In this document: positions 638-44,756 of the stretch, in pieces
How the letters are laid out: each line of letters opens with the position of its first letter
Position numbering within the stretch: position 1 is the first letter of the stretch
From: Chrysoperla carnea
Lineage: Eukaryota > Arthropoda > Insecta > Neuroptera > Chrysopidae
Direction of reading: 5' to 3'
Assembly (NCBI RefSeq): GCF_905475395.1
Contig: NC_058342.1
Location: 26,074,640 to 26,138,639, forward strand
DNA: 64,000 nucleotides
Made by a program: the position numbers and the translations under genes
Notes under the pieces: generated by a model
What the model was told of the DNA's origin: nothing
The model's database searches: none
What the model saw: only the letters and a program-made list of their open reading frames with translations

Positions 638-1012
638 GAATGGCGAAAACCGAAATCCAGGACCATAATGCCTTCATCCACAACAAAATCAACCCCTCCA
701 AAACCTATATTAGCACTATCACCAACTCAACAACAAGCGGTAACGGTGTCAGTGGGGGGTGATCGTTCAAATGGGGCTGGTACAAATGGTTGTGATGACA
801 GTAGTAATAATGTGATACCATTGAATTGTACCGCAATTGTTACAAACAATAATCCATTAATCCAAACAGCCAATAATAATAATAGTACATCCTCACCTCA
901 ACCGCCACAATCCACAAGTCCCTTAACTGAGCAGTCTAATGGCAGTCCATCAGACAAAAATTTATCACCACAAAGCCAGAAAGGGTCCAATACATCTGTC
1001 AAATCTAAAAAG
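638..1012 (+). CDS. X11L: X11L exon: low-complexity linker before the PTB domain
   Basis: An AG at 636-637 precedes an open frame starting [14 protein letters not shown], and the exon closes after SVKSKK at a GT donor (1013). It runs 375 nt and is phase 0 at both ends. The product is a Ser/Thr/Asn/Gln-rich linker ([20 protein letters not shown]) with several SP/TP sites and no folded domain. The ATG at 668 is in frame, but the frame stays open back to the splice acceptor, so it is probably an internal Met. The other forward frame starting at 640 stops within about 120 nt. Confidence 0.8.
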
Positions 1013-4000
1013 GTGTTGTTTCATTAACAATTTTATTTAATTTAATATCGGAGGTTTGCTCTCTGTTTCTTTTTTTTTTTTTAAATATCGTAAATCATTT
1101 TACTTTGGTATATGACCTCGAATGTTCTAAGATATTTACGCAATTTTAGAATTACATCGAAACTATCGAATGAGTCACCATCGTGCAGTCCGCCACCAAA
1201 TTAGCAAATAGTAACATTCATAATAAGAGTAATCACTAGCTAATTCTTACTGATGATGACTACTTGGTAATCGAAAATACGTATTTTAAAAATACAAAAA
1301 ACTGATCGAGGAAATTGGGGCAAAAATCGAAATTTATATCGAATGATCGATCACATTGACTACAGAATCATTGATTGTCAAAACCCGAATTAATCGAGTA
1401 AATAAGACAGAAAAATACTGTAAAATGTTCGAAACCTGCCAAACAGCAACGTTTTCAAAAATCCTTTTTTCTACGTGTTCCTTAGATCATTATAGTCCAG
1501 TCTCCTGGTAGGTTTTGATTAATTTTTTTTTACGAATGACTGGAAGGGTAATTTTATGTGCTGGTCACGAATTTTTAGGCCATTTTGCTCCCTGAGGCGA
1601 GGAAAAAAGATATGGCCATTTTTACCGTTTTGAATAATTTTTTTCGAGTAAGAGGTTGACTCGGAATATATGCCGGAAAAGATAGTGGAGTGTTTCACCT
1701 CGTTAAAATCAACCATTTCCAGAAAATCGTAAAATTGAGGTTTTAAAAAATGCAGTTATTTAAAAAAAATCAAAATAGGCCTTGTAGAGTTTGATCAATA
1801 TTCCGACTTCTGAGCTAATTTAGCAAAAATTCGGGCCACGAAAAAGTGGTTAGTTTTCGAGGTTAGAATTATTTTAGATTGGTCAACATTTTACACGTTG
1901 TTAGAGTTCGACCCAACTTTTGCCGCCATCCGATTTCATTTAATTCATCTAGAACCAGAGATATTGATCAAAATGCGTTTGTGGCTACCTTGTCCTAGAA
2001 AAAAAATTCAAAATATGGGCGGTAGATTGGTTCTTTCAAAGAGGTATAACAAAATAGGGGGTGCTATTTGAAACTTCAAAGTTGGGGTGGATAAGTGTGA
2101 AGGGGAGAAACCTAAAATTTTCTAGGTACCATTTTTGAACTTTCCCTTCGATATCTAAATCGACGTGTTTTCATTCAAAACGATTATTAAGGGTGGATAC
2201 GTTTGAAATGAACACACTGTATAATCAGCTTAATAGTACCTTAACCAGAAGATAAATTAGAAAACTTTATTTCGTGTCGACTTTTGTAATTCTAAAATTG
2301 AGTAAATTTCTTCGGAGACATTCAGTATGTATACCTCTGCTTTTTTTTTCTTTACGCTGACCATATTTAAATTAAGTGCGCAAAAATTTTGACACAACGA
2401 CAAATGGCAGACAAAAAATAAGTTAACATTTTTGATTTGCTTAAAGCTTTTCGCTTTAAATATATTTTTTCAAGTAGTATAAATATGCTTAATTGGCTTT
2501 TTTTTTAAAAGGAATGGCGTAAAAAATATAATCAATTTTTTTCAGGCAAAAATTTTTTTTCTAGATATTTTTTTAATAAGTGCTATGCATTTATTTTTCA
2601 ATCGTGCGCATGTTTTCATTTAGAAAATTGCATGAACTCGATAATGAAAAAGAAAATATATTGTCATAACGCATGCGAACAAAGCTTAGTTTTAGTATTT
2701 AAAATAAATAGCTTTATAAAATTATGAAGAAAAAAATGTATAAAAAACCAAATTTGGTTTTTATTCTTAAAACAATTTAAAAAAAAATTTTTGTTTTTTT
2801 TATTAAAATGTATACTTATATTTGGTTTTTCTTTATTTTCTTGTGCAGGACAAGGAAAACAAGAAGAAGGGAAGAAATAAAGAAGGTAAATCCTTTTTTG
2901 TTATGAAATATTACGTCAATGCCTCCCCCCCCCCACTGAGCTATATTCTATAATCTGTCTACGGACCTTGAATCCTTATAAATCATATCAACGCACGCTC
3001 GTATACACAGAATTAAAAGCACTTTAGAAAAGATGAATCGCTTATTGACATAGGCGTCGCCAAAGGGAGGCGGATAGATGAAATATTACGTCAATGCCCC
3101 CCCCCCCCCCCACTGAGCTATATTCTATTATCTGTCTACGGACCTTGAATCCCTATAAATCATATCAATGTACGCTCGTATACACAAAAATAAAAGCACC
3201 TTAGAAAAGATGAATCGCTTATTGACATAGGCGTCGCCAAAGGGAGGCAGATAGGGGCAGCTCTCCCTCTCTAAAGATTCACAAAAATGGTTCTAAGTAC
3301 CCACGAATTTTTAAACAAAATATTTTCTCCTAAAAAATGACCCCTTTAACCTTCTTAGTATGAAATTAGAGTCAATGAAGCTACATAAAAATTTTCAATT
3401 AATGAAAAACAGCCCTTATTTGGACCCTCAGGGGAAAATAAAGTTATATACAAAAAAATGTTTCAAACAAAAGTTTATTTATAAGAAACATTTTTTACAC
3501 TGACACTTTTGTTCTATCTCTTATGGTTTACAAGATGGGTCTTACGGATCCAAGACCAAATGGATTTTTGAACTTAAACTCATTTTTTATGTCCTGAGCC
3601 CGATATAAACAAATTTAAGTTCAATTTTTGTAACTGAAGTTTTCTGGTGTATACGAGCGTGTTTTTATACAAGTGTGTCATTTTTTTTGAATCCGTATTT
3701 ATATTAAATTCTATAAAAATTAATTTTTGTTTGTTTAAAAAAATGCTTACATTTTTGGATAAAATAATTCGTAAGTATATATTACCCAAGCCAAATCAAA
3801 GGGAGTTGACAAAATTTATAAAAATTGTTTTAAAATACCCTTAAACGTATCTGTATACATATGTCTAGAAAAGTTCCGGAACAGTTCCAATGTCGTATTT
3901 GTTGGGCCTATTCATATACCCCTGAAACCTTATCAAAAATTTTGAATGGAAACTTTCATTATTTATTGCCCAAGTACTCACCGAATAATGTGTTTGTCTA

Positions 4001-7000
4001 CTTAGACTTAGGTTGCGCTTTCGTACTCAGGCAGCGGCAGTGTGAACAATTATAGGGGCGGTAGAATTGATCACATTGTCGTCGCTTGGATAAGAACGTA
4101 GTAACCGACTACACCCACATCAAAAATGTATTTGTAAATATGTTTGTAATTAAATAAATAAGGATTAACAAATAATGATGTGGATGGCCTCTGTTATAGG
4201 CGTATATGTCAGAGAAACGGATGTTAAACCCCATTATGATTATTATTATTATTGCCCAAGTACTCACCGAATAACATGTTTCTAAAAAGGCTAATTTCTA
4301 TAAGAATTTCCGCCAAAGGATTGAGATTTTTTCCTGAGGAAGCAGAGCGTTTCATTCCCGTAAAGGATCCCACACAAATTAAATGTAAATTGGGTCCCGG
4401 TCAATTTGGCTGAAATTGTGAAATGTTATAGATCTCGACATTCTGATCAAAAGTTATCATTGTCCAAAAGTGATTCTTGTGGATAGTTTCGGAGATATAC
4501 AGGGGGAAGTGTGTGATATTGAGTTACCGTTTCTGAGTCTCTAGTATTAGTATTCGAAAGTACTCGGGGTTTTTGTAGTTGCCAAGACTGGAAGATCACT
4601 TATGTCCTAAAATTATTTTGAGGTCAAGTCAAGGTCGTATCACACACTTCTCCCCTGTATTTCTCTGAAACTATCCATAGAATCACTTTAAGTCAATGAT
4701 AACTTTTGATCAGAATGTCGAGATCTATAACATTTTACAATTTCAGTCAAATCGACCGGGACCTAATGATCTGCGAATTTTTTAGCTCTTGTACCCAGCA
4801 TTGCTACGAGTTGCCCATAACTGTAATGGAGTCGAGTTAGCCCGGGCTTACGAGTTTTTTATCAGCTATGTTAACCATGTGATTAAAATATTCAGACGCT
4901 CTGCGAGTTTATCATGTCTTTTACGGGGTTGAGCTATCACGAGCCTATGGGTTTTTTGTCCCTTGAATTAATAATGAAATACCCAGACATCCTGCGAATT
5001 GGACATGTCTCTAATGGAATCGAACCAGCATGAATCTGTTATTTTTTTGGCTTCTACGAGTTAGCCATTGACGATCTATGGGTTCTGATAATCTTTTTCC
5101 AGGGTGTAATTTTTGAAGGATGAATTTCCGAGGATGAAATGACCGGGGGATGAAATTATTGAACAGACGAATAAACAAACTTTCAAATTCATAATATTAG
5201 TATAGCTATGTCAACTCCTAAGTGAAATTTTTTTGATAAAACTTAATTAATTCGTAAAAAATGTTTTATTTAGGACTTCATGAACCGTCAGTGTTAATCG
5301 AAGGAGTTCTATTTCGTGCGAGATATTTGGGATCAACGCAATTAGTCTGTGAAGGTCAACCAACGAAAAGTACTCGAATGATGCAAGCGGAAGAGGCTGT
5401 TTCACGTATTAAGGTATTTAAAAAAAACAAAATTATTTTCTCATTAAAAAACTTTTATTTTTTTACATAATTTTTTTTTTTATAAATAAATTACGCTTTG
5501 GATAATTCTGCCCCCACGACATTCGCTGTGTTTATACATTTACTTTGCACTAATTTTGTAAATTTTTCAAACAGTTAATAAAAATGTAGGATGTTGTTAC
5601 TAATTGGGTTAAAATTTGAAATTGTTTTAATGTTTAACGGGTTAGAGTCCTTATAATTGGTTTTCACATTTTCCTCCCAACTAAAAATTTGTTTATTGCT
5701 AAGGGTCACTGATCTACTTTAATATCTAGCTGATGCAAGCTAGAAAATCCTAAATCTGATACACTTTAGCTTGATACACGCTACAGTGATCCGGTAGTCG
5801 AAATGATTAACCTAGATTTTCAGGGAAAATCCCATAACCTACTCACTTCTCTAACTTTAGTATAAGATCTATCAGTATAAAATACCACGCCCTTTGGCTT
5901 AACCAAGTTCTCATCTCAATCCTGCCTGGAGGGGATCTTTACCGAGAACTTTTTCCGGAAGTTAGGAGAGGATAGAACGTAGTCGACGGATCTTGGAAGT
6001 GAGTATCTTCGTAAGATCCGTGCATGACCATAATGCTTCTCAGTCCAGGGTTAGACAAGATTTAGCATGAGGGCCGCACCTGCTACGCATTTGTCTCCAA
6101 AGAAGTCAGTTGGCAACAGATGGAGAATTACATCAAGTGCTTTAGATGGTGTTGTCCGTAGACATCCCGAGATTAGTACGGATGCTAACTGTTGGACTTT
6201 ACCTAGTACTTTTTGGTGGATTTCTTTTTCTAGTGCGGTTCACCATACCAGTGACCCATAGAATAGTATGCTCCTGATGACCGCAATATATAGCCAGTGA
6301 ACCAATTTAGGGCCTACTGTTTCCCCATGGCCTTTTTGCAAGTGTATAATTCCACAGTTGCCTTTCGGGACCTTTCCAAGAAGTTGGGGGTCCCCATAGT
6401 AGCTTTTGGTCCAGGATGATGCCTACATATTTGGCTTTCTCCGATAGGCGAATTAGCTAGCCCCCCTATGATCTAGCAATGTCCTACCCGCAGATTTCAG
6501 CTGCAACTTAACCAAACAAACAAATCCTTACTAATATACAAATTTTAAATGGGATGCTTCCTTCTATAACCAAAATAAGGACCCTATTTTTTGTTTACTT
6601 TTCTGGGCATTGGCGATTGTCAAAGGGCTAAAAAAAACTCGTGTTCATATTGTTAAGAATGTATAAATATTTGGACCCAATAAAATTATGCACAGTCCAA
6701 AATTTTATATAATTCCAAATTTCGTTTTTTTTTTTCAATGTTTTTTACAAATCATTTTCATAAAATTTCAAAAAATATTTTTATCTATTTTATTTTTTTG
6801 AAAATTGTGTGTGTTTTATGTTGTGGGCATTATTGGAGTTCCAGGCTTCAAAATTTTGTTGTCACCATATTTTTTCATGTAGCCAAAAAAAAAAAAATAT
6901 ATAAATATATTTTTTTAAGACCCAAAACAAAAAATTATTTCCAAAAATAAAGAAAAACTGATTTCCAAAAGTAAAAATAACTTATTACAGTCAAAATCGG

Positions 7001-10000
7001 CTATAGCACGATGTCGCTTATAACGACTCAATCCAAATACTATAACAACGACTTATCGGTTATAACGCTCAACAGTCATTATTATTGAGGCGTATTTACT
7101 TAATTTAGAACCTTATAAACATTGCGGACGCCTCAACTCGACCCTTTGCTATTCCAGTTTGTTTTTTGACAACGGGGCTTTGATTTGTCCTCGGAGAAGA
7201 ATGATTTAAAGTAAAAGTGTTATCAAATTAACTCCTAGGGACATTTCTCTGAAAAATAATTATTCCGTAGAGATAAAAAGATGTTGGGGCGTCTCAAACT
7301 GATCCTTTGCTATTCCAGTTTCGATCTTTTATTTTTCCTCGGAAAAGTGAAAGAGTTCTTCGTTTCTTTCACGAAAGAAAACTATTCCAAATAATCGGAT
7401 GTTGTTGTAACCGGTTTTGACAATATTTTTATTTTACGCATGTGTGTTTTATTATATTTAAAGCATGGAACAAATTTTATGTGCGTTCCAAATTTGGAAA
7501 TCATGTTGATCCAATAGACGTTTATTGATTTATTTTTTTTAGGTAAACCCAACTAAGAAAAAAAAGATTAAGCGAGTTTGGTAGAAAACATGCCACTCGC
7601 TTCATCTTTCCCCCCCAAATAGTTTACAAAAGCGCACAGTAGAAATTACAATGCAATTTTGAAGACATTTTAAAAATGAAAAAAAAAAAATTATAATAAG
7701 ACCTGTAATTTTTTTGTAACGATCTTCTTCTGGCCATAATTTTATTATGTAAATACGATACTTTAGAAAACGGCCATAAGAGATGTCTTTTTTTTTTACT
7801 TAGAATTAGAAGTTTTTGTTTTAAAAAAATAAAAAGGTTGGTGTTTAAAATCCTCCCCTTTCATATTTTTCTTTCCACGATTTTTTTTTCAAGTAAAAAC
7901 GACTATCCGTCTGTCCGTTTTACTATGTTGTATAAAACCTTTGCCCCCCTAAAACCCCTGCCCTTCAAACAAAAACGAAAATAAATAGTTAATCCAAATT
8001 TTTTTATATAAACCGCATAATTAATGATTGTGCGGCGAACGCACGCTTTTATTGGTTGGTTGCCTCCTGCCTGCTATACTTATACATGTACTCTCTTTCT
8101 GTATCTCTATTTCTGTCTCTATTTGTTTTATTTCTTATATATATAATATCTTTGTCTTCACTGTTGGTTATTCGCATCATTTCGTAAACGTGTGCTGAAC
8201 AATTTGAATAAACATTTTATTTTCATTTGTTTTTCTATTTTATTTTAAGTTAAAACCTAATGCATAGAGGTATTTCATCTCCAAAATCGAATCCAGAATT
8301 AATTTTTGGCACAAGGCTTTATTTTACACATTAAAACACATCTTAAGTTATGTGCTTTTGAGTTTAAAGTGATTCAAATACAGTAGAGTCTCGATAATAG
8401 TAATGGGATTTAACCTCCGTTTGTCAGATATCCATCTATAACATAGGCCACCCGCATCCTAAACTACACCCATATACAGGGTGTTCTGTTATTCATAGCA
8501 GAAAATTATACCACTAAATTAAGCTCATCAAGACAAATGGAAAAGCTCTTTACCAAATTTCGATCTGAGGTCTGATTCGGGAGATGTGGCTATGGGAAAA
8601 ATAGAAATATTTATGAATTCACAGACCTATCAAATTCGTTAAATTAATAGATGCCACTTTATAAAACAATAATTAATTGTAAATTGATTTAATTGGGTAG
8701 CGAATACTAAAAAAAATATTTTGTTGTCTTTATTTATAAAGAAAAAAATACTTATTTATCAAATTATTTCACCAATACAGAGACCCTTAGATGTGGGAAG
8801 TTTCAAATTATATATTAATATAGGTACGGGGGGGGGGGGGGATTAAATTGTGCAATACATAATACAAAATCTAAAACATTGTATCACTTTACAACTTCAA
8901 CACAGAATATACATAGTGTGGTTTGTCTGTGAGTATATGTATCTTAGCATGTATTTGATTAAAACGGACTATGGTACGTAATAGGGCGACGATAACGTAG
9001 ATATCGTAGATATCTGAAACTCAAAAACTAGAGCTGATCGAAAGATTCGAATTATATATTTGAGTTTATCATGCCATGTGTAGTCAACAACAGCAAAAAT
9101 TTCGGGCATCATCCTAAGCTGAGTCTTCTGTGATGTTCTGACCTTCAGTTTTTTTCTAAATAAAACTAGGTCATCGCATTCAACGTGGTTTTTAATATAT
9201 GCGAAAATTAATATTTCTTAACTATCCTGAAAAACCTAGATTTTTTGATTAGCTATATTTTTCTTGATACATCGTATTTAGGTTAAATTTTCATGTGCCG
9301 AATGAAATCTTGTTCCAAAAATCTATTTTAGATTCGATTTTATGGACTACTTAACATTTGTTAGCCTTTATTCATTGGGAAATTATTATCATTTTGTTCT
9401 GTTTTTGTTTCAATTCCTTAAGTGGTGTGAAGTCCGTTATTATAAAAATTTATTCCTATAATTCTTAGGTCTGCATGTGTCGTACTTGTTTTCTTAATGC
9501 CGAATATTTCACAAATCATACAACGTACGAATTTTATTCATGAATACTATTTTAGTTTTGTAAATTTATTTTTAATTAATCTTCAAGTTTTTAAATGTAA
9601 AATTTTACGACAGATATTATTTGAGACGAGTTGTGGTATAAACATACACACTAAAAAAAAAAAGTTAAAATAATGGCAACCTCATTCCGAAGTTGGCCGT
9701 TTCATATTGAAATAAATTAATAATAATTTCAAACAATTTCCTAATGATTGCAACAAGTACAGCTAAATATTTTTATGTACAATATAATGGGATTGAATTT
9801 AAAATATGAATTCATTGATACAAAATCACTGAAGTTAAATAAACAAAATCATTACTTCTATGAAAGAGATTAATTTTAAAGTCATGCATTTTATTGATGG
9901 AAGATAAAATTGTACTTAGTTGGAATATATTAATCGTGTAAATAAAACGAATAGACAAATTAAAAGAAAATTTGGTTACTACGAATACATATCTGTCATG

Positions 10001-13000
10001 TCTAGCCAATGTGTGGTTGTGTCAACTTCATGAAGATTGTTGTTGTATTGTTATTGACCACTTGTATAATATATAATATATTTTTATACATATGTAACAA
10101 CCAACGGTAGCCCAGATGGCACAGCGGTGGACTTGAGTTACTGGTTCAAGTCCGACTCGAAGAAATCTAATTTTTTTTAAATAAACCTAATAAATCTGCT
10201 CATGCGGTTGTGTCAATCACATCACTATTTTGTTATAATATTTATAAGTGGTAGAACCAATCAAAAAAAGATTGTTTAAAACTATTTTGCATTTAAAACA
10301 ACAATATTTGAAATTTGTTAGACATTATATTACTTTCATACAAACAACTCATTCGCTTGTGTCAACCACACTACTCAACCCCCTACGATAGTTGTATCAC
10401 TGACAAATCATAAACGACTACAATTATAGAATAGACTCTAGGGGAAATTTTATGAATCTCACATTTTGAAGGAATGTAGTTTAAAAAAAGTCAACAAAAA
10501 TTCTAAAATTCTACACAGAAGATGTAATTATTTCTGCCAGTTTTCGCAAAACTTTTACCTAATTCCAGAATGTCTTTCCATTTACTCTGTAAATTTATTG
10601 AATTAAACATTATAATACAGTTAAGCTGATTGCTGATAAAGAGATATACTTTGCCTTTCATGATAATAATGTAAGACTTTGTACAGTTAAGGTTGACTGT
10701 TTTTTTTAATAAAATTTTTGAGGTGGGGATAATCTGATTTCTGTATCAGTATTCCTAATTATTTCAAAAATTATGTAATGGCTGAAAACATTGATTTAAA
10801 TAGTTAATATCTATCAACTATGCCTCAAGATTATACAGTGGAACCTGGTTAAGTGAGACATCAAGGGACCTGCAAATTTGTCTCACTTATTTACTTTTCT
10901 GAAAAAACAATCAAAAATGAAAAAAATAGGACAAAAATTGTCTACAATATATCAGTGTCCCCTCGATTATTTCATTCTAGCAGCGCCTACGCTCGTGTGT
11001 AATTCGAAATGTCATCGTGTCTCCATATCTGTGATATATATATAATGGATGACGTCACAGAAGTATGACACGCATAAAATTCGAACCGGTGGAATGAGCA
11101 ATTTGATTAAGTTTATTTTTTTACCAAATTACGTTCTAGTTTCTAATTTATAATTTAAATACAATACAGTCAAACCTGGATTAGTAAGAGTTATTGCTAG
11201 GTCCCGTCATTTTAGTCCACCAAGATCTCTAAACGTGAGAGACAGGTACCTCTATAAGGGAAAAAGTCTTTTGCTCTCGCGAACCTGGGAAATTATTTAC
11301 CATAATATTCTGTCGTAAAATAATATTAGTGATTTTTTTTAAATTAATTAGCTGAAATAGACAATAATAGTATGTTATATTAATTCATATAATTTTTCTC
11401 GAAATATTTTCTCATAATCTGAACATTTTTATTCAAATTAATTTCCATATTAGTCTTACGAATTCAAATTCCGTATGTTGCATGTCCGGTGAAATACATG
11501 GTAATAAAGAATATTTTTCATAGAATAAAAGTCGAATGAGATGAATGCAAAACAAGTTTAACTGTACTTAGTAGAGTTAGTCTGCACATTTAGACAGGAT
11601 TCACTATAATTTCGCACTCAGTTTTTTTTTTTTTTTTTAATGAAGAAACGACATAAATGATATAATAAAAAAAAACTCAATGCTTTTCAAAAACATTGAA
11701 ATTAGTTTTTTTTCTTTTTCTGTTTCGCTTTGTACAAAATCCAAAAAAAAAACTTTCTGGAAAGTCCTGTTGCACATTGGAAAATTTTTTGTCGTTTTCA
11801 CATTGTTCAGTGTTGTTTTATAATTATATTAATGATGTGGGTGAACGCACTACTACTAAAGTGTTTTAAAATAGTCCTGTGAAGTTAGGTTTTGACCTCG
11901 AAATTCGGTTATAGCAGACAAATTTTGATTATTCTTGTTTTGTTACATTTCTAATATTATATATAAACAAAAAACTTGTACCTTTAAAATTATCGTTTTG
12001 GGCCAACATCGAAATGTGAAGAGTAAAATTTCGATTTCTAAATATCTAAAAAAATTAAAAAATTTTCGCAAACATTTCAATTCCGTCAAGTTGTGAAGAG
12101 CCCATTAGTTATTAAGATATTAAGGAGGGAAGGTAGTTATTTATAGGCCAAGAGCCTGTGAATTTTAGAAAATTATAAAAACATCACATATCTTCCACCC
12201 TCACTTCCACGGATTTATTTCGAAAAACATTAAAATTCTATTCAAAACGATTCACTTAAAAGGAATTGGTGAATGGAAATTTGCATTTTCGTACAGCTTT
12301 TTGTGTGAATTTTCTCTTAATACCTTCTTTTCTCTCCCGAAAACGGGTATTATTAACTATTTTTGAGCATTGATACCCGTTTCTCCTGTGTTCTTGAAGG
12401 TTTTTGATCCACTCATCAAGGATGACTGGAGTCCATATTTTAAAAAAGTTTTGGTCAAAAGACTAGCTCTTAAAAAATTTTCATTCATATCAGTGTTTGC
12501 GGAAAACGTTTCATAAAAACTGACGGATATATTTAATTGAAAATTTTGCCCAAATTAACGAAATAAACAAAAAAAATATTTCGAAATTTTGGTTAAAGCT
12601 TATTTTCAAAATAACATATAAATCGATACCACACACTTCAGTTTTCGAATAACTAAACTTTCGCCAACTTTTCGACTTTCGCACCCTCCTCCGCCAAACC
12701 CTATTTCTTCCCTCACAATCGTAAGAAACTGAATAGACGCTATAGTCAAAATTTCGAGATTGCAAGATTCGAGGTTGCCTGATTTTTATGTTTTTAAGTC
12801 AAATTTTGACTGTAGTAAATTCTACCCTTCGCATTTTAATGTTAACCCAAATCGGTAAATTTTGTAGGTTTGCGTTTTTTATATATGACTTTAGAAATGA
12901 AACAAAATAGGAATTATCAAAATTGGTCTATTATAGCCAGGTTTCTAGGTTTGGCTTTTATTTATGTTATAATTAATCTCAACTAAAAGGGAGGAATTTA

Positions 13001-16000
13001 TAAAATAGTTAAGGCTAAAAAAAACTCGCATTTCTCTATCCACAAAAAGTGCCAATATTACAGGAGGCATCCAACCAAATATGTCAAAGTTATCGCCAGT
13101 ACGGCCACAGCAGTATGACGTCATTAGGCAGTTACGACAATGAGACAGGAATGGAAGACAATATTGACGATAATGATGATAGAGATAGTTGCGACAATAT
13201 AGCTCCGCCGGTGTCTGTCAACAGTATGACAACACCCGTGGAAGATGTATCTGTGTTAAGTCATATCCCACATCTAACGATGCCAGTATCCCCAGCACAA
13301 TCACAAGTTGTGCCGCCCATGGCTTTGGGTGTTGGGGCAACTGGTACGGTTTTTCGTCTCCAATTTCTTGGATCTGTTGAAGTGGATGAGGAAGGTGGAA
13401 GAAAACGACGTAAACGTCTCAAGAAAGTTATGGTCGAAGAAGCTGTTACAAAAATTAAGGTCTGTCCAAAATAAAACACATTCAATTTTGTAAATGTAGT
13501 TTTTTTTGAGGAAAAAAAAGTTATAATTCAATTTTAGTATAGCAAATTTTTTCCTTTTTATGGTTTGTTGAAAAAATCATTGGTATCCATGTTACGGTTC
13601 CTTGGGCGCTAAGTTTGATTGATAGATTTCATTGGAATTCAATAAAATAAAAATACTTGCCTAAATATTGGATACATCGGTAATTTTTCGAGATATCTCA
13701 AGTGAAATGAATCCATAATTTTGTTGTGATATAATCATTTATTCTCAAACATCATTCTGTGAATGTTTCCAGGAACTGAATCGCCTGGCACTGAATAACA
13801 CAACCAGACTGATGTGGATACCGGGCCACTCTGACACGAGAGGGATCATCTCAAACTATCTTTTTACCTGAGCCTGTCACTCCCATAGCAAGATGTAATT
13901 TAAAGAAACAAGAAATGGCAACGACAAGCCCATCTTGATTACTTTGCGCAGGGCTTGCGACAGGTCAAATAGTGTATAACCATAGCCAGATCTTATGGAG
14001 GATGAAAAACCTTAATACATGTTATTTTAACCTGCAAAAATCTGCAGAGCGTCAGGCTTAGAATGTTTCAGTTCGAAACGTTGGATACATTAATCCTGTT
14101 AGAAATCCTGACGGAGAAGCTGTGGGCTTTCCACCGTTGCGTCTGGCTTGAACAGAATCCTATATCTTTATCTGTTTCGAAATCAACGCTAAATGGCAGT
14201 TTTTGTTTCGAAATCAACGGTAAATGACAGTCTTAACGCCGTTTATTGAATTGCTATTAGAAGAACTCCGAACAATTATTGTTAGTGAGGTTTGGACAAG
14301 AATTTCGTATAATTTGAACGTACGAAACTAAATATGTCTCCATTTTCTACAAAACTTTAAAAGATGGATGCAAATTTAAAGGCGTATATTCGAGGCGTGA
14401 AATCGGGGTATCAAATTTTATCCTAGGCTTTATAGTTTCCGAAAAAATCGATGAAAAAGTGTCAGTTTTTTCTTCGGTGAATTTCAAGTTTTGGCTTATT
14501 ACATCTAATTTCATACGAATTTTATCTGTTAAATTAGTTTAGTAAAACAGAGGACTAAGAAAATTTTTTCTGAAATAACTATTTGATTGATTGTCAATTA
14601 TTGCAAATATCAAAATTTTATGTTTACTCTCTTTTTGATTACCGCTTCAGGTTCTATTAAATTTCGCGATCCAAAATTCCACAGATTTACGAGTGCATTT
14701 CAGATTGTATTTCAATATCTCGAAAAATAGCTGAGATATCGAAAATTTTGATTTGTTTTTGGTTTATCTCCTCGAATTCTAACAGAATCAATCCATCATG
14801 TAAAACTCAACGCCCAAGAAATGATAATATTCTTAAATCATTTATTAATTGGATAATTTCTTAAATTTTTCTCCTATTTCGCTTTCGTGGATAATCAGGC
14901 ATTGGTAAGTTTATTTATTTGCTTAAAAAGTAGATATGGTTTTTGAAATCTCGTCAATAATTCTTAAAGAGATTCAGAAAGTTCCACACAAATTTCTTCT
15001 ACTACAAATAAAGGCAAAGCTACTATTCGACGTTTCTAACAATAAAATAGGAGTGAAATTCATTTAGTATTTGGAAAATTCCTCGAAAATTCTGTTATTT
15101 TGTGATTTTAACGTAATGTAGGTGATATCCATAAAAGGGGATGGGATTGTGGAGGCGAAGGGCTCACATTTATATACATTTCAATATTCCTGAATCGAGC
15201 TACGGCCTGTGACACTCGGCGACAATATTTATATTTATTTATACGTCACCTCTTTTAACAAAACGTAACCTTATAGACATTCCTATTAGCAATGGATATA
15301 TGAACGCATTTCGTTCGAGAAATAACGATTTAACGTCTTTTTTAAATCGCTAACTCGATTTAATACTGTTTAAAATTCTATGTAGATTCAATTCGTCACC
15401 TCTTTCACGAAAACATAACCTTATAGACATCTTTATTAACATTGGATAGATGAACGCATTTCAGACCATCACATTTAAGTTGCCAATTTTTATGGACAAT
15501 CCTGTATTGATTTCCTTAAAATCACGGTTACGAAATTCGTTATGACACTTGTGTCCGTTAGGTTTGTACCATTTCTGGTAAGTTCGTCGCCTTCAAAGGT
15601 TCCTGTAATGTTGCTTTGACCTTGCATACATCATACAACTTATTTATAAAATCAAATTTGATAGAATCTAAATCATTGCATTAATCAAATGCTTGTTCTA
15701 AATTAGGCACCTGATGGCGAATCGCAACCAAGTACAGAAGTAGATCTATTTATATCGACTGAAAAAATAATGGTATTAAATACGGACCTGAAAGAAATTA
15801 TGATGGATCATGCGTTACGAACAATTTCCTATATAGCTGATATTGGTGATTTAGTTGTGTTAATGGCACGGCGACGATTAGTTCCACACGAAATGGAGGA
15901 TCCACCGAAAATAAATCGTACACCAAAAATGATATGCCATGTGTTTGAAAGTGAAGAAGCTCAATTTATCGCACAATCAATTGGACAAGCGTTTCAAGTT

Positions 16001-19000
16001 GCCTATATGGAATTTTTGAAGGCGAATGGTATTGAGGATCATAGTTTTGTGAAAGAAATGGATTATCAGGAGGTGTTAAATTCACAAGAGATTTTTGGTG
16101 ATGAATTACAAATGTTTGCCAAGAAAGAAATGCAGAAAGAGGTAAGTTATTTACGATGTTAATTAAACAAGCGTGAATACAAAGAGAGGCAATTGAGGCA
16201 AATTTTTTTTAGAAATTTAGATTTTTTTCAAAGGGAATTTTGTAACCGATTTGGTTAAATGACTAATAACTAAAGTATTTTTGACTCAAAAAATACAATG
16301 AGGTCTCTTTGACAATTGGAGGACTATATGATGGGTAATATTAGGTAAATATCTCAAAAACTTGTCGCCCAACCGCAAAATCAACAAGATTTTCATGTTC
16401 ATGGATTATTAATACTAATTAGAGTCCAAAAAATATCATAATCTAGCTCATTTGAGGATTTGATGAGTAATTTTTCCAAGATATCTTTAGAATTAGTGCG
16501 AAATAGAAACTTTCCTAGCAGATTTTTGGAAATATCTCGAAAGCTATTTTACTTAAAAATAGGCGTGTATCTATAAGTCTATATTGGGGGATCACAGACA
16601 CTGAAATCCGGATTTATAGTGGTGAGAATCGTTAAATTTTTTGTGTGTTTTCATGTGGGGACCATTACCTAAAAATTTCTTTTTCTACTATTCCTTTTTT
16701 CCCCTTTATCGTATGAGTGCCCTTTTCCTAAAAACTTGTTAAAAATGATTTAATTTAGTTTTTATACCCTAAAACATTTTTTCATAAATAATTTTGTTTT
16801 CACGCGAGGGTCCAAATTATTATATTTCCCCGTTCTCAAAAACTATAAAAGATGGTGAGTTGAAAATTTGTAGGAAGCTTCATTGATTTTAATTTCATAC
16901 TAAATCCATCCGGTAACTGATATTTTAAATTCAGTAGAAGTTTACTTTTTTAAAGCAAGTGGGTGCTTTGAACCATTTTTGTGAATCTCTAGGCAGGGGC
17001 AGCTGCCTCTACTTGCCCTCCCTTGGCGACGTCCATGATTTATTATAATTGATTTTTACTAATAAATTTTTTTCGTTACAGGTCGTTGTACCAAAGTCAA
17101 AAGGTGAAATATTAGGTGTTGTAATTGTCGAATCTGGCTGGGGATCAATGCTTCCAACCGTAGTTATTGCAAATTTAGCTCCAGCTGGTGCGGCAGCACG
17201 TTGTGGCCAATTAAATATTGGTGATCAAATAATTGCCATAAATGGTGTCAGTTTAGTCGGTTTACCATTATCAACGTGTCAAAATTATATTAAAAACTCT
17301 AAAAATCAAACTGTAGTTAAATTAACAGTAGTCCCTTGTGCTCCCGTTGTTGAAGTTAAAATTAAACGACCAGATACTAAATATCAACTTGGATTCAGTG
17401 TTCAAAATGGTGTTGTAAGTTTCATGCGTAAGAACGAACAGTCCCCTCAAATATCTTTTAGAAATTCATTCTTGATTACTGATATTTTGAAAACACAGTG
17501 AAAGTCGGTTTTAGCGACATCTCTTTTAACTACGAATCGATTATTAAGGCAAATTTGTTAGACTCTAACTGAATCTAGTTATAAATACAGTGGAACCTGG
17601 TTAAGTGACTGCTGACTGCGACTTGACCAACTGACCTGCGAATTTGTCTCACTTATAGAGGTATTCCACTTACCCAGTGTCTCAGATATCCATGTATAAA
17701 GAAATATCTGTCTCATTTATAGAGGGTTCCATTAATAGAGCTCAGAATACAGGTTTTTCAGAAACGCTTCTTCCTTCAGAAAAATGTCATTTTTTGACTG
17801 TGTATCTCAAATTCAAAGAATTTCATCTAGAATCATATCTAAAAGGTTTTCTGAGGGGATATTTTAAGTGAGTTATAAATGCAATTGGGATAATTTTGTA
17901 CACAGATATGTAGTTTACTTCGTGGAGGAATTGCAGAACGTGGTGGAGTTCGTGTTGGACATCGTATCATAGAAATTAATAATCAAAGTGTAGTGGCTGT
18001 ACCTCACGAAAAAATAGTAAATCTTTTGGCAACATCGGTTGGCGAGGTAAATATTTTTTTAATACACCTTTCAATTGCAAATTTTTTTTGACATTTTTGA
18101 TAGGTTGTAACTTCGCTCCAAATGTAATCAGATAATCAGTTTCAGTAGAAACTGATTTGGGGTATTGATACATGAGATGCTGATTTGTCTAATATCAATA
18201 TCGTATGACAGATGGATTATGTTTTTCCGAATACGGATTCCGTTTTTCCGTTTTTCTGAGTGCAGATGGATGTATTATGATGGTTTTTCGTGTAGTTACA
18301 GTCGTTCTGATGATGTGCCAGATCAGCAAAAATACAAATATGTGAATATGGCTCATTTCCAAAGATCCGGGAATGTGGATCTTTGATTTGTGGCTCCAAA
18401 TTTCGATTAATTAAATTTCTTGTGAATTTAGTTTTGAACGTCTTCTATTTTTTATAAAATAAAATCATACAAGAGATCCAATTAAAAAGAAACGGATACG
18501 ACCAATAGTGAATTAGCCATATAGCTAGAGTAGCAAATGTTACAGGCCACGCGAAAGAAGTTTTTGATTGAGTCTGCCCAGGGGGAGGAAGGATACAGGA
18601 TTTACACCCAGAGCCACCCATCTCCTTGAGAGAAATAAATCGTTAGGCAACTACTTTTTACAAGGCAACTACGTTTTTTGAAGAAAGTTCACTAACTTGT
18701 GGCCGTGTAGTCTGTGCGTCCGTCAGTCCACGCGACGTCCGTAGGTCCGTCTGTTTTCCGAGTCGGGAGTACGTTAGTCTGTCTGGTGTCCTGGTCAAGC
18801 AGGCTACGTTCCTGCACCGCAGCGATATGGAACCTACGAAAAGACAAAAATAAAGGAAATTTAAGGGCTGTTACTTGAAGACAGTCTGATGCGATCTCAA
18901 TGTACGAAGGGCGCCTATGATGACAGCCTTCTGCATGGCAGAGATAAGGTTACGAAGATGAGACCAGCAGATCGGAATTTGAGAAAGATTTGTCTCGAGA

Positions 19001-19401
19001 GTTGGACGAATTGCGCAAAGGCAATCGATAATGAGAACAACCATTTTGACTGAGTATCCAGTGTGTAGTTGTCGTAGTTCTTGCAGGAGATCAAGATATT
19101 TACTCCGTTTATGCTCCTTCTTCGAGACTATACTCGTTTCTGCGGATGCAGAGAACTCGATGACGTACATAGTCTTAGATGAGATATCCTGAAGCTTAGT
19201 AGTGGAGAGCTCCCTGGTAGTTGGGAACGAGAAATTCCAAAAGATAATGCTTTTCTTGTTCTTGACGATGGACTCTAACTATTATTATTTTTATTATTGT
19301 AAACTGATATCCAAAACAATTATTTCCAGATATTAATGAAAACAATGCCAACATCGATGTTTCGACTTCTAACCGGACAAGAAAATCCAGTGTATATTTA
19401 A
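638..19401 (+). CDS. X11L: X11/Mint/LIN-10 family adaptor (APBA-like), 3' two-thirds of gene, multi-exon
   Basis: Seen: exons 638-1012, 2849-2885, 5274-5413 (or the alternative 13064-13459), 15707-16141, 17082-17414, 17906-18046 and 19330-19401 join in frame with AG acceptors and GT donors. They encode a Thr/Ser/Asn-rich linker, a PTB domain ([64 protein letters not shown]), PDZ1 ([20 protein letters not shown]), PDZ2 ([19 protein letters not shown]) and the C-terminus GQENPVYI. Known: X11/Mint proteins bind NPxY-type motifs such as in APP through the PTB domain, bind synaptic and trafficking partners through the PDZ domains, and their C-terminal tail can fold onto PDZ1. Inferred: a neuronal adaptor for receptor and APP-like trafficking. 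The N-terminal part lies upstream of base 1, so no initiation codon is claimed; the ATG at 668 is internal. All exon junctions are phase 0 except 2885/5274, which is phase 1. The introns are large and full of repeats. Confidence 0.93.
1013..2848. other. X11L intron; no gene seen
   Basis: No supported coding exon. Around 2,140-2,225 a stretch ending in GGGTGGATACGTTTGAAATG followed by ACACACTGTATAA resembles the end of a dispersed insect repeat. The 3' end has a good pyrimidine tract and a TTGTGCAG acceptor. Confidence 0.6.
2849..2885 (+). CDS. X11L: X11L 37-nt exon: basic spacer before PTB
   Basis: The exon is flanked by TTGTGCAG and GTAAAT. It reads [12 protein letters not shown] plus one nucleotide and joins the exon at 5274 to make [14 protein letters not shown], which is the entry to the PTB domain. 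It enters in phase 0 and leaves in phase 1, so it can be used only together with 5274-5413 and must be skipped when 13064-13459 is joined directly to the linker exon. Confidence 0.75.
2903..3253. repeat. Tandem duplication, 175-bp period, with poly-C tract
   Basis: Two head-to-tail copies (2903-3077 and 3078-3253) begin ATGAAATATTACGTCAATGC, each followed by a run of 10 or more C. They end CGTCGCCAAAGGGAGGC. The copies differ at scattered bases. The duplication starts 18 nt after the 5' splice site of the 37-nt exon. Confidence 0.9.
3040..3420 (+). repeat. Dispersed repeat, inverse of a copy at about 16,850-17,037
   Basis: The segment containing GGCGTCGCCAAAGGGAGGCA, GATTCACAAAAATGGTTC and ATGAAATTAGAGTCAATGAAG is matched in reverse complement at about 16,850-17,037, in another intron of the same gene. 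No coding potential is seen. The element class is unknown. Confidence 0.7.
3425..3560 (+). repeat. Partial copy of the CAAACAAAAGTT dispersed repeat family
   Basis: Contains TTTCAAACAAAAGTTTATTT, a later ACTTTTGTTCTATCTC, GGTTTACAAGATGGGTC and TTACGGATCCAAGACC. The same order of motifs recurs at 39,375-39,490, 49,257-49,350, 63,165-63,240 and, inverted, at 56,530-56,600 and 61,255-61,350. Confidence 0.75.
3964..4274 (+). mobile_element. Short non-LTR insertion bounded by a 25-bp target-site duplication
   Basis: The same 25 bases, starting TATTGCCCAAGTACTC, occur at 3964-3988 and 4250-4274. They bracket a 261-bp insert ending in an ATT-repeat tail (about 4,232-4,249). A long duplication plus a simple 3' tail is the signature of target-primed reverse transcription. 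The insert is either a SINE or a 5'-truncated LINE 3' end and has no useful open frame. Confidence 0.75.
4390..4765. mobile_element. Inverted-repeat element (MITE-like), about 376 bp
   Basis: The left arm begins GGGTCCCGGTCAATTTGGCTG-like sequence and runs about 130 bp to GGGGGAAGTGTGTGATA. The right arm is its reverse complement, from TATCACACACTTCTCCCC to CGACCGGGACCTA. The central 100 bp is unique. It is non-coding and sits in an X11L intron. Confidence 0.8.
5274..5413 (+). CDS. X11L: X11L exon: PTB N-terminal half, canonical version
   Basis: The acceptor is TTTATTTAG (5273) and the donor is AAG/GTATTT. With the preceding nucleotide it encodes [34 protein letters not shown] and [13 protein letters not shown], closely resembling the first strand and helix of mammalian X11 PTB domains (YLGSTQL, MMQAQEAVSRVK). 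It starts in phase 1 and ends in phase 0. It competes with exon 13064-13459 for the same downstream exon. Confidence 0.92.
5900..6480 (-). pseudogene. Decayed LINE reverse-transcriptase fragment
   Basis: On the minus strand the translation gives [20 protein letters not shown] followed by VW, a stop, then [10 protein letters not shown]. Further on comes [16 protein letters not shown] with frame shifts. This is the segment after the RT catalytic core in R1/Jockey-type non-LTR retrotransposons (LYTAVVRPILLYGS..VWW). The fragment is broken by stops and indels, so it is non-functional. It is inserted antisense in an X11L intron. Confidence 0.75.
6988..7423. mobile_element. Degenerate inverted-repeat element with CAGTCAAAA..TTTTGAC ends
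   Basis: The left end CAGTCAAAATCGGCTATAGC is preceded by TA. The right end GTTGTAACCGGTTTTGACA is its approximate inverse. Inside are short repeats of TTATAACGAC. Similar right ends occur at about 47,604 and 52,450. This is consistent with a small pogo/Tc1-type non-autonomous transposon; the class is tentative. Confidence 0.5.
7543..7575 (+). CDS. Candidate 33-nt microexon in the X11L PTB domain
   Basis: A strong acceptor (T-run followed by TAG at 7540-7542) is followed by 11 in-phase codons, [11 protein letters not shown], then a weak possible donor CGA/GTTTGG. Read without that donor, the frame continues VW then stop, which would be a truncating terminal exon. Mammalian X11 has a lysine-rich insertion at the same PTB position (after VSRVK), so a basic microexon inserted after SRIK is plausible. 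It could equally be a chance acceptor in A/T-rich DNA. Confidence 0.3.
7576..10100. other. X11L intron; repeats only
   Basis: No supported gene. At 8,381 a CAGTAGAGTCTCGATAATAG sequence resembles a pogo-type terminus. At about 8,475-8,640 lies a repeat starting TACAGGGTGTTCTGTTATTC and containing TTTACCAAATTTCGATCTGA; a relative occurs at about 61,858-61,980. A run of about 15 G occurs near 8,828-8,842. Pyrimidine-rich DNA spans about 8,060-8,160. Confidence 0.6.
10105..10178 (+). mobile_element. tRNA-derived SINE head or tRNA-like fragment
   Basis: A pol III A box (TAGCCCAGATGG, 10108-10119) and B box (GGTTCAAGTCC, 10143-10153) lie at tRNA-like spacing and are followed by a TTTTTTTT terminator at about 10171. 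No acceptor stem can be formed across the ends, so this is not an intact tRNA gene. It is best read as a short SINE or SINE remnant in an X11L intron. Confidence 0.6.
10836..10910 (+). mobile_element. Solitary pogo/Tigger-like terminus
   Basis: TA followed by CAGTGGAACCTGGTTAAGTG and ACATCAAGGGACCTG, nearly identical to the left end of the element at 58,936. A second diverged terminus, CAGTCAAACCTGGATTAGTA, begins at about 11,166. No matching right end was found nearby, so these are fragments. Confidence 0.65.
11200..13063. other. X11L intron; no gene seen
   Basis: Only A/T-rich unique or diverged repeat DNA. A weak inverted-repeat terminus (TAAGTCAAATTTTGACTGTA at about 12,797) resembles the CAGTCAAAA family. 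The minus-strand open frame at 12,511-12,765 has no recognisable features and is not called. A TATTACAG acceptor closes the intron. Confidence 0.6.
13064..13459 (+). CDS. X11L: X11L alternative exon: acidic linker plus second version of PTB N-terminal half
   Basis: The acceptor is ATATTACAG (13063) and the donor AAG/GTCTGT. The exon is 396 nt, phase 0 at both ends, 132 residues. Residues 1-90 form an acidic Ser-rich linker ([27 protein letters not shown]). The last 40 residues, [28 protein letters not shown] and [11 protein letters not shown], align with [14 protein letters not shown]...[11 protein letters not shown] of exon 5274-5413. Both exons splice in phase 0 to 15707. The upstream exon 638-1012 ends in phase 0, so this exon can replace 2849+5274 without a frameshift. 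Inferred: mutually exclusive or promoter-linked isoform. If both exons were included, the PTB start would be duplicated. Confidence 0.8.
13757..14170 (+). pseudogene. LINE fragment: RNase H and C-terminal end (family B)
   Basis: Translation gives [20 protein letters not shown] then PGHSDTRG, the RNase H domain signature of R1/Jockey-like LINE ORF2. After frame breaks comes [17 protein letters not shown] then [19 protein letters not shown]. The tail is shared with fragments at 25,620-25,870 and 45,985-46,180. Stops and frameshifts make it non-functional. Confidence 0.75.
14171..15706. other. X11L intron
   Basis: No gene. An internal direct repeat of about 70 bp with period 150 bp (copies from 15,244 and 15,394, starting CGTCACCTCTTT and ending GATGAACGCATTTC-like sequence) is the only clear structure. 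An AAATTAG acceptor closes the intron. Confidence 0.6.
15707..16141 (+). CDS. X11L: X11L exon: PTB C-terminal half
   Basis: 435 nt, phase 0 at both ends, donor GAG/GTAAGT. It encodes [77 protein letters not shown] and [17 protein letters not shown], i.e. strands 2-7 and the C-terminal ligand-binding helix of the X11 PTB domain, then the linker [20 protein letters not shown]. It is the common partner of both alternative upstream exons. The ATG at 15770 is internal. Confidence 0.95.
16142..17081. other. X11L intron with inverted copy of a dispersed repeat
   Basis: No gene. About 16,850-17,037 is the reverse complement of the repeat at 3,220-3,400 (GGGCAGCTGCCTCTACTTGC, CTTGGCGACGTCCATGA). Confidence 0.65.
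17082..17414 (+). CDS. X11L: X11L exon: PDZ1 and start of PDZ2
   Basis: Acceptor TTCGTTACAG, donor GTT/GTAAGT; 333 nt, phase 0. It encodes [57 protein letters not shown] and STCQNYIKN (PDZ1), then [20 protein letters not shown] (first strand of PDZ2). The match to mammalian X11 PDZ1 is very close (GEILGVV.VESGWGS.LPTV..AN). Confidence 0.95.
17588..17760 (+). mobile_element. Pogo/Tigger-like left-end fragment
   Basis: TA CAGTGGAACCTGGTTAAGTG, then TTTGTCTCACTTATAGAGGT and GTTCCATTAATAGAG. The order matches the first 130 bp of the element at 58,936. No right end is seen in this intron. Confidence 0.65.
17906..18046 (+). CDS. X11L: X11L exon: core of PDZ2
   Basis: Acceptor TACACAG, donor GAG/GTAAAT; 141 nt, phase 0. 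It encodes [38 protein letters not shown] and NLLATSVGE, near-identical to the APBA PDZ2 core. Confidence 0.95.
18047..18870. other. X11L intron, 5' part
   Basis: No gene is seen. Short open frames at 18,165-18,399 on both strands have no features. From about 18,540 the base composition rises in G+C, which fits the LINE sequence that follows. Confidence 0.55.
18871..19270 (-). pseudogene. LINE ORF2 C-terminal fragment
   Basis: The minus-strand translation gives [40 protein letters not shown] and [20 protein letters not shown], ending [16 protein letters not shown]. This resembles the tail found in many animal LINE-type polyproteins (VIE...A..E..KYQDL..E+..LW...V.VV..V.GALG..., ...QK...LGT.R.LR). 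It extends in frame about 100 nt upstream of the Met. It is a truncated retrotransposon remnant, antisense in the last X11L intron. Confidence 0.65.
19330..19401 (+). CDS. X11L: X11L last coding exon: end of PDZ2 and C-terminal tail
   Basis: Acceptor ATTTCCAG. The exon reads [17 protein letters not shown] then ENPVYI and TAA (19399-19401). The terminal PVYI corresponds to the C-terminal tail of mammalian X11 (PLYI/PVYI), known to occupy the PDZ1 groove. Confidence 0.95.
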   Translation: MLMKTMPTSMFRLLTGQENPVYI

Positions 19402-39640: not shown

Positions 39641-39965
39641 ACAGTTTTAAGCGTAACAATCTTGGGATTAAACTTAGTATACTTTTATCTATTTCATATA
39701 TACATGATATAAAAATGTATGTGAGTCCTACTACCGAATAAATGTGGTTAATTGTTTGAATTACATGAGGAAAGTAAGAAATCTGCCTTTTTTCACTTTA
39801 CCGACTGTTTTCTCCCATTTTTTTTTTTTCTTTTTTTTTTTAATAATGAGCGGCTGATTTTTTTTGTTTTTTTGGGTTGACAAACTTGCATTGCTTAGTT
39901 TGGATGATTTAAAAGTATACCTTTTGGCAGACTGTACTACGCAGAATTGATAATAATTTTAAAAA

Positions 39966-41354
39966 ATGGCAAATAATTCGTTTGAAGATACAAATAATCA
40001 TTTATTTATCAATAAAGAAAATATTAAACCTGAAAAAAAATTACATACAAAAGTGATTATTAAAAATGAACTTGGACTCAACGACAATGCAAAAAGTGTA
40101 AAATTAGAGCCTGTTGAAGAAAATGATGACTATTTGTACGCAAATATAAAACTTGAAAAGGAATTACTAACAGAATTAATGATTAAAGATGAAGAAAAAG
40201 AAGACAGCATGTTAGAACGAGAACCAGTTCAAATTGAAGAGGTGTTAGATGGCAAAGCCAAAAGTGTAAAATTAGAGCCTGTTCAAGAAAATGATGACTA
40301 TTTGTACGCAAATATAAAACTTGAAAAGGATTTACAAACAGAATTAATGATTAAAGATGAAGAATTAGAAGAAAGTATGTTAGAACCACAACCAGTTCAA
40401 ATTCAAGAAGTGTTAGGTGAATCTGTTTTAGAAGAAAAACGATTTTCTTGTGATATTTGTACTAAAAGATTTACTACGAAAAGTTCTTTAGTTAATCATA
40501 AAAAAGTTCATCGTGAAGAAAAACGATTTTCTTGTGATATTTGTACTAAAAGATTTACTACGAAAAGTTCTTTAGTTAATCATAAAAAAGTTCATCGTGA
40601 AGAAAAACGATTTTCTTGTGATATTTGTACTAAAAGATTTACTACGAAAAGTTCTTTAGATAATCATAAAAAAGTTCATCGTGAAGAAAAACGATTTTCT
40701 TGTGATATTTGTACTAAAAGATTTACGAAAAGTTCTTTAGTTAATCATAAAAAAGTTCATCGTGAAGAAAAACGATTTTCTTGTGATATTTGTACTAAAA
40801 GATTTACGAAAAGTTCTTTAGTTAATCATAAAAAAGTTCATCGTGAAGAAAAACGATTTTCTTGTGATTTTTGTAATAAAAGATTTACTCAGAAACATCA
40901 TTTAATTCAACATAAATTGATACATACTGGTGAAAAAACCTTTTGCTGCGATATTTGTACTAAAACCTTTGCTCGCCGTAGTTGTTTGATTAAACATAAA
41001 CGTGTCCATACTGGAGAAAAACCTTATCTATGTGATATTTGTAATGAAAAATTTTCGCAGCGAACTTGTTTGATTAAGCATAAACGGATCCATACCGGTG
41101 AAAAACCCTATTCATGCGATATTTGTACTAAAAAATTTAGTCAACGTAGTACTTTGGTTTCCCATAAACGTATACATTCAGGCGAAAAACCTTTTATTTG
41201 TAGTGTTTGTAATAAAGCATTTACCCAACAAAGTTCTTTATATTTACATAAAGTTATACATACTGGAGAAAAACGGTTTTCTTGCGATATTTGTAACAAA
41301 AAATTTATTGGGAAAACTCCTTTAGTCAGACATAAACAGATTCACAATCGATAA
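39966..41354 (+). CDS. C2H2 zinc-finger protein, 11 fingers, 462 aa
   Basis: Single open frame. Residues 1-158 are acidic and disordered. They contain an internal duplication (42-94 and 98-150: SVKLEPV.ENDDYLYANIKL repeated) and seven psi-K-x-E motifs (IKNE 32, VKLE 45, IKLE 61, IKDE 73, VKLE 101, IKLE 117, IKDE 129), the SUMO-acceptor consensus. From residue 160 come 11 tandem C2H2 fingers. Fingers 1-5 (FSCDICTKRFTTKSSLVNH) are near identical with HREEKR linkers; fingers 6-11 are diverse with TGEKP-type linkers. Fingers 4 and 5 lack one residue between the second Cys and first His (11 instead of 12). Inferred: nuclear DNA-binding transcription regulator, lineage-specific. It is a paralogue of the gene at 44,757. 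No KRAB, BTB or ZAD domain is seen. A further 5' exon cannot be excluded, though the ATG is clean (AAAAAATGG). Confidence 0.88.
   Translation: MANNSFEDTNNHLFINKENIKPEKKLHTKVIIKNELGLNDNAKSVKLEPVEENDDYLYANIKLEKELLTELMIKDEEKEDSMLEREPVQIEEVLDGKAKSVKLEPVQENDDYLYANIKLEKDLQTELMIKDEELEESMLEPQPVQIQEVLGESVLEEKRFSCDICTKRFTTKSSLVNHKKVHREEKRFSCDICTKRFTTKSSLVNHKKVHREEKRFSCDICTKRFTTKSSLDNHKKVHREEKRFSCDICTKRFTKSSLVNHKKVHREEKRFSCDICTKRFTKSSLVNHKKVHREEKRFSCDFCNKRFTQKHHLIQHKLIHTGEKTFCCDICTKTFARRSCLIKHKRVHTGEKPYLCDICNEKFSQRTCLIKHKRIHTGEKPYSCDICTKKFSQRSTLVSHKRIHSGEKPFICSVCNKAFTQQSSLYLHKVIHTGEKRFSCDICNKKFIGKTPLVRHKQIHNR
40443..40856 (+). repeat. Coding minisatellite of five zinc-finger units (84/81 bp)
   Basis: Three 84-bp units and two 81-bp units, nearly identical at nucleotide level (TTTTCTTGTGATATTTGTAC ... 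CGTGAAGAAAAACGA). Unit 3 has one change (Val to Asp codon). Units 4 and 5 share a 3-bp deletion, so one was copied from the other. Confidence 0.95.
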
Positions 41355-44490: not shown

Positions 44491-44756
44491 GATTATATTT
44501 GCACGTAAATTTATGAAATATTCCACCAAAATTAAACATAAAATATTAAATTATAAATTTTGTAAATATAAATAGTTAATCAATAATTTTTAAAGTTTAT
44601 TGTTCAAACTTACAAATTGAAACCTAATTTTTTCCGGGTTTGTTGTGAGTGCTTAGTGGAACGCACTCTGAGAGAGAAATGTTGATTGACAATTTCAAAA
44701 CAAAATTTGAGTTGTAGTAAAAAATTGATATTTACAATTTTATTAATATTAAAAAA

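Follow-up and report, generated by a model that had tools for sequence, protein, structure and literature searches.

A putative alternative exon for the N-terminal half of the PTB domain in an X11/Mint gene of Chrysoperla carnea

In a 64,000-nucleotide stretch of the Chrysoperla carnea genome (Insecta, Neuroptera), here called the window, the first 19.4 kb contain the 3' portion of an X11/Mint adaptor gene in which two related exons may serve as alternatives for the N-terminal half of the PTB domain. The window covers positions 26074640-26138639 of contig NC_058342.1 (forward strand; RefSeq assembly GCF_905475395.1, 559 Mb in 337 contigs) and has a G+C content of 31%. The encoded domains, PTB first, then two PDZ domains and last a conserved C-terminal tail, make the gene a member of the X11/Mint (APBA) family. 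The top PDB matches of its canonical PTB domain are the human APBA1, X11 and APBA2 PTB domains (APBA1 4dbb, E=1.1e-54).

Of the 13 exons in the gene model, five precede the window. These five coding exons, found in the 100 kb examined on that side, lie at 4148-4592, 5169-5680, 6577-7150, 7845-8147 and 9288-9370 of the upstream piece L003; the last reads into the first exon of the window without a stop. For the Munc18- and CASK-binding regions, no Pfam domain above cut-off was found in the four upstream exons (of five) that were scanned; the alignments of a published survey contain, in the part cited here, no conserved signature for either (PMC11405698).

Within the window all exons lie on the plus strand. 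The common upstream exon E1 (638-1012; EWRKPKSRT...NTSVKSKK) ends in phase 0. It is followed by E2a (2849-2885), a basic 37-nucleotide microexon that leads from phase 0 to phase 1 and is required before E2b; its acceptor ranks at the 99.8 percentile of AG sites and its donor at the 98.5 percentile of GT sites, all such percentiles resting on a general-knowledge weight matrix. E2b (5274-5413) encodes the canonical N-terminal PTB half. E3 (13064-13459, its 5' border uncertain) encodes a 93-residue acidic leader and a divergent 39-residue N-terminal PTB half (13343-13459), with an in-frame ATG at 13115-13117 as a candidate start of a short isoform. The common C-terminal PTB part is E4 (15707-16141; Pfam PID, 98.9 bits, profile 45-139). 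E5 (17082-17414) encodes PDZ1 and the start of PDZ2 (Pfam PDZ, 64.3 bits for the enclosing frame 17049-17501), E6 (17906-18046) continues in frame with the remainder of PDZ2, and E7 (19330-19401) ends in QENPVYI*. PDZ2 and this tail are so named by general comparison. A conserved C-terminal autoinhibitory element has been reported for the Mint family (PMC11405698, in part).

In silico splicing of all exons, the five upstream ones included, gives two isoforms that are stop-free down to QENPVYI*: A, with 12 exons and the pair E2a and E2b, and B, with 11 exons and E3, open across 1222 residues. The original prediction had proposed that E2b and E3 are homologous over about 37 residues, that both end in phase 0 before 15707, and that 638-1012 can join either 2849 plus 5274 or 13064 directly, and on these points the analysis agrees with it. 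Both exons carry AG/GT borders, and SRIK| (E2b) and TKIK| (E3) each directly precede APDGESQP of E4. Their peptides share 15 identities among 37 aligned residues (39 columns), with a Smith-Waterman score of 63 that none of 5000 shuffles reached (maximum 44, or 46 with shuffling confined to the last 40 residues of E3). Among the 1079 stop-to-stop frames of at least 30 residues in the window (E2b's own excepted), the E3 frame ranks first against the E2b peptide, the runner-up scoring 34. Spliced to E4, either half raises the Pfam PTB score, from 100.1 bits for E4 alone to 143.1 with E2b and 121.9 with E3. At the very start of the two exons the similarity is not significant, and homology there was rejected as unsupported.

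E3 is stop-free across 396 nucleotides (132 codons), as was none of 16668 intron stretches of equal length, and its codon score of 0.301 per codon lies above that of every one of the 2385 sampled intron stretches (highest 0.043, with stop codons left out). Open-frame length alone is weaker evidence: simulation yields a mean of 0.17 stop-to-stop frames of at least 151 codons per 64 kb. E2b and E3 are both coding and belong to one X11/Mint gene. Third positions are G or C in 48 of 132 codons of E3 and in 263 of 1149 in the rest of the gene (p=0.001). This excess sits in the leader (13064-13342; 0.42, vs 0.23 in the PTB part and 0.23 in the rest of the gene) and might reflect constrained regulatory RNA sequence, or else a separate origin. 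Two observations concern the introns around E3. A stretch at 6067-6258, between E2b and E3, is stop-free from an ATG and coding-like (overlapping 40-codon segments score 0.26 and 0.15); it might represent an exon of a different transcript, or simply an unrelated frame. Interspersed repeats at 9648-10044 and 13862-14183 lie in the flanking introns, and further copies, about 70-84% similar, occur at other places of the 164 kb examined.

Internal duplication within the gene is the simplest origin of E3. A PID search of the assembly gives at least 16 matches, and a query with the alternative PTB domain finds only E3 and E4 (four candidates scored); these counts are lower bounds. A second X11 gene was considered and rejected, as no other PID match looks X11-like; by eye several resemble ced-6, Shc, Numb, JIP, capon, ARH and Fe65, with a few short ones left unnamed. 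There thus appears to be one X11-type gene in the assembly. Derivation from another PTB gene was rejected as well: the E3 PTB half scores 63 with E2b vs 41 with the best other locus, the comparison covering the loci of 16 PID matches, in which N-terminal halves split off by introns may be missed. That score of 41 belongs to a Numb-like exon and falls inside the shuffle range (maxima 43 and 47, 300 shuffles each), while an ILRAQYLGSTQV exon scores 38, above its shuffles (maxima 30 and 33), over 17 residues only, and is closer to E2b (44).

The reading frame leaves several ways of using the two exons. In silico, E2a+E2b, E3, both in tandem and neither all stay in frame, while E2b without E2a and E2a followed by E3 break it. 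Since tandem inclusion and double skipping are in frame, the frame does not enforce exclusion. The 5' phases differ, being 1 for E2b and 0 for E3 in the PTB frame. Over 13064-13143 two frames compete. In the PTB frame the first 17 codons of E3 are intron-like, only 5 of 1129 coding segments scoring as low (19 of 1132 with leave-one-out training), and the signal rises at about ATG 13115, from where a segment scores 0.31, a value reached by 38 of 3653 open intron segments. Over the same first bases, coding-like scores appear in the phase-1 frame, which matches the end of E2a and runs into a stop at 13141-13143. The segments overlap, as do the intron stretches compared with E3 above, so that all these counts are non-independent, and part of this evidence on the E3 start was sought after the pattern had been noticed. 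A TATA-like motif at 12999 is of a kind frequent by chance in such AT-rich DNA. Docking and selector sequences, whose competing RNA pairing serves a subset of mutually exclusive exons, were looked for as exact pairing near the exons, with nothing beyond chance: the longest dual complements measure 8-9 nucleotides in three layouts, and equally long ones occur in 131, 22 and 136 of 200 shuffles.

The exchange would bear on some surfaces of the domain and spare others. Strand beta5 of Mint2, probed at Y459-D462, is the pairing partner of the APP tail (PMC8291497, in the portion cited), and the counterpart of this segment is YIAD at 15830-15841 in E4. Because the groove strand lies in the common exon, recognition of NPxY tails such as that of APP should persist in both forms, and basic cargo recognition would be kept. 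From the PTB fold, E3 would replace strand 1 and helix 2 and make the loop between them strongly basic. The stretch RKRRKRLKK (13400-13426), which the original prediction had pointed out, has 8 basic residues of 9, and its place in this loop, at the surface, is predicted from the same fold. The acidic, Ser-rich leader of about 90 residues is likewise present, with 13 D+E, 2 K+R and 19 S+T in its 93 residues. The canonical form has a linker, KKDKENKKK, that spans the E1/E2a junction and is itself basic in 6 of 9 residues, so that the contrast is one of where the charge lies and not of basic against neutral. On these sequences, the switch would shift positive charge out of a flexible linker and into the PTB domain, and would add an acidic leader. 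Some of what had been predicted needs narrowing. A different first strand and helix is retained, as a predicted replacement, while the suggested change in ligand contact meets a groove strand that both forms have in common; a different PTB specificity becomes less probable, the changed face being another one. A different membrane affinity is weakened too, as the charge is only elsewhere. By analogy with the Mint1, NUMB and Dab2 cases described below, E3 would act on location or a second partner and leave basic cargo recognition as it is.

On the reading we favour, to which we give about even chances, E3 is a working alternative exon that combines the common E4 groove with a different second face, perhaps entered as an alternative first exon. 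E3 would replace strand 1 and helix 2, and E4 would retain the groove for NPxY tails, e.g. those of APP-like proteins. The resulting adaptor would have similar cargo and a different second face, made of the basic 8/9 loop and an acidic flexible leader in place of the E2a linker, and this face would most likely shift the membrane or second partner that holds the adaptor, as proposed by analogy with NUMB exon 3 and Mint1 exon 6 (see below). Translation from ATG 13115 would yield a short Mint that lacks the long N-terminal region, and promoter choice would then also choose the PTB half. Established here are the gene structure, the homology, the common junction and the place of the groove strand in E4; expression of E3, its route of entry, the fold of its half and any effect on membrane or partner are predictions. 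The lean towards an alternative first exon comes from exons that are far apart and unlike in length and 5' phase, with E3 having its own ATG and leader. The original prediction of two adaptors from one gene stands in part: both versions are in frame; exclusivity is not enforced by the frame, and the 5' codon scores of E3 hint at an alternative start.

Several observations weigh against this reading. E3 alone reaches 14 bits at profile positions 1-34 of Pfam PID, under the 20.9 cut-off (E2b, 38 bits over the same positions), and the genome PID search lists it marginally, at 20.8 bits, or 21.3 with its neighbours. A PDB search with the E3 PTB half gives no match, and one with the whole of E3 gives two (E=1.1 and 1.2) that lie outside the PTB half or belong to non-PTB proteins; with E2b by itself the search gives four PTB sequences of human X11, from E=5.9e-12 (APBA1 4dbb) to 4.4e-11. 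Given this weak profile score and the lack of a PDB match for its half, E3 is a strongly diverged copy. As to the start, an out-of-frame ATG at 13081 precedes ATG 13115 with an overlapping frame, and no stop interrupts the PTB frame back to 13063, where a plausible acceptor ranks at the 94th percentile of AG sites. Accepted exons E1 and E2a also begin with low codon scores (-0.06 and -0.33), and 0.49 is obtained for a largely intronic 17-codon segment of the PTB frame at 13040, which marks the measure as noisy. As to function, NUMB PTB domains with and without exon 3 both bind phosphatidylinositol 4,5-bisphosphate (PI(4,5)P2) in vitro, and the cited passage states that the cause of their membrane difference is undetermined (PMC11889595); the basic loop of E3 might instead contact RNA or serve as a nuclear signal.

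Under the model of the original prediction, E3 would be an internal exon that replaces E2a and E2b through a 1012-13064 junction, and the product would be a full-length Mint with the alternative half and the leader. The phases fit this route, the isoform is open over its 1222 residues, and the acceptor and donor of E3 stand at the 94th and 95th percentiles. It is nevertheless a tentative alternative that we hold to be rather unlikely: the first 17 codons look non-coding in the PTB frame, docking and selector pairing is no better than chance, and two exons 7.6 kb apart, unequal in length and 5' phase and in frame in tandem, are unlike the usual exchange pair as generally known. The coding look of the phase-1 frame suggests another possibility, namely that E2a is joined to E3 in the phase 1 that E2b uses, with a one-base frame change in the assembly or the individual, or as an unproductive splice. 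Read from 13066, this frame scores 0.52 per codon over 15 codons, a value reached by 8 of 4123 open intron segments, and 0.42 over 17 codons, reached by 10 of 3653. We regard this as improbable, for the stretch is short, several frames and segments were examined, and the starts of E3 and E2b are not significantly similar. The divergence of E3 could also mean a relic, or an exon always spliced in tandem with E2b, so that no second PTB adaptor is made; the tandem is in frame, and the PTB part of E3 is far more diverged from human X11 than that of E2b. This is the least probable of the explanations, and we give it very little credence, since such divergence should have brought stops, yet none of the 16668 intron stretches is open over this length and the codon score stands above all 2385 sampled.

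An alternative first exon would extend to a bolder proposal that we consider possible and somewhat doubtful: one gene making two Mints through promoter choice, a long neuronal-type form with the conserved half and a short form with a membrane- or partner-binding basic loop that lacks the N-terminal partner regions. If true, this would be a single-gene equivalent of the vertebrate split into long and short Mint paralogues and of the Mint gene pair in Drosophila. The fly's Mint A and Mint B, which we take to be X11L and X11Lbeta, resemble the present case in giving an insect two Mint forms and differ in being two genes and not one. Most invertebrates surveyed have one Mint, and D. melanogaster has two by duplication, as far as the cited part of the survey goes (PMC11405698).

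Splicing within the PTB domain has precedents. Mammalian Mint1_826, which lacks exon 6 and with it 11 PTB residues, gains binding to Rab6, accumulates in the Golgi area and retains its binding to APP, according to the passages cited (PMC3667844). Translation of the isoform primer printed there places exon 6 at SRIK|AP. The two cases are thus alike, on this partial source, in gene family, in the splice junction SRIK|AP and in PTB splicing that spares APP binding (here predicted); they differ in that exon 6 is an 11-residue insert, in or out, after helix 2, whereas here the whole half from strand 1 to helix 2 alternates and a new leader is added. In NUMB, inclusion of exon 3 lengthens helix 2 and places a charged loop at a distance from the peptide site, and in cells only the PTB domain with exon 3 is found at the plasma membrane (PMC11889595, in part). 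The E3 form would resemble it in having a positive loop off the peptide groove; in NUMB the loop alters membrane association and partners, as is predicted for E3. NUMB exon 3 is an insertion in another PTB family, of the chordate lineage and absent from fly Numb, while E3 is a replacement. PTB domains of the lipid-binding Dab1/Dab2/NUMB type are marked by a surface cluster of basic residues off the peptide groove and by affinity for acidic phospholipids; RKRRKRLKK is a candidate for such a cluster. The Mint1 PTB domain has a second peptide site on the face opposite the NPxY groove (PMC10820826, portion cited), and in Dab2, changes of the PTB lysines Lys53 and Lys90 abolish PtdIns(4,5)P2 binding (PMC2778132, likewise).

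Tandemly duplicated, mutually exclusive exons offer a further comparison, being alike in having two homologous coding exons with one common 3' phase; E2b and E3 differ from such pairs in their 7.6 kb distance, their length, their 5' phase and the lack of exclusion forced by the frame. In fly X11L, a slight shift of a 3' splice site is linked to the choice of 3' untranslated region (PMC10484994), to judge by that passage another kind of event. An alternative PTB half for insect X11L is not among the matches listed in the open-licence PubMed Central (PMC) literature, and five short strings from E3 do not occur in the open-licence PMC papers searched; the exon may already be annotated in RefSeq or FlyBase gene models, which lay outside that search. 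Among the binding partners of Mint adaptors are APP-family proteins, neurexins and calcium channels. Exchange of half a domain that spares the cargo groove would show one gene separating cargo choice from location, and as the junction is the same as that of the smaller switch in mammalian Mint1, it would be an old hot spot for tuning the adaptor.

No match was found in Rfam and tRNA scans of the 64-kb window, and no relatives were found among the viral contigs and genome contigs collections. Downstream of the gene, two stop-free C2H2 zinc-finger frames at 39963-41351 and 44721-45932 (463 and 404 residues) have similar N-terminal stretches, and a third of like appearance by eye is found on the opposite strand, about 63 kb before the start of the window. 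A 156-residue stop-free frame on the minus strand at 52843-53310 encodes a ubiquitin-conjugating enzyme (UQ_con, 166.8 bits, nearly the whole Pfam profile) and is possibly an intronless retrocopy.

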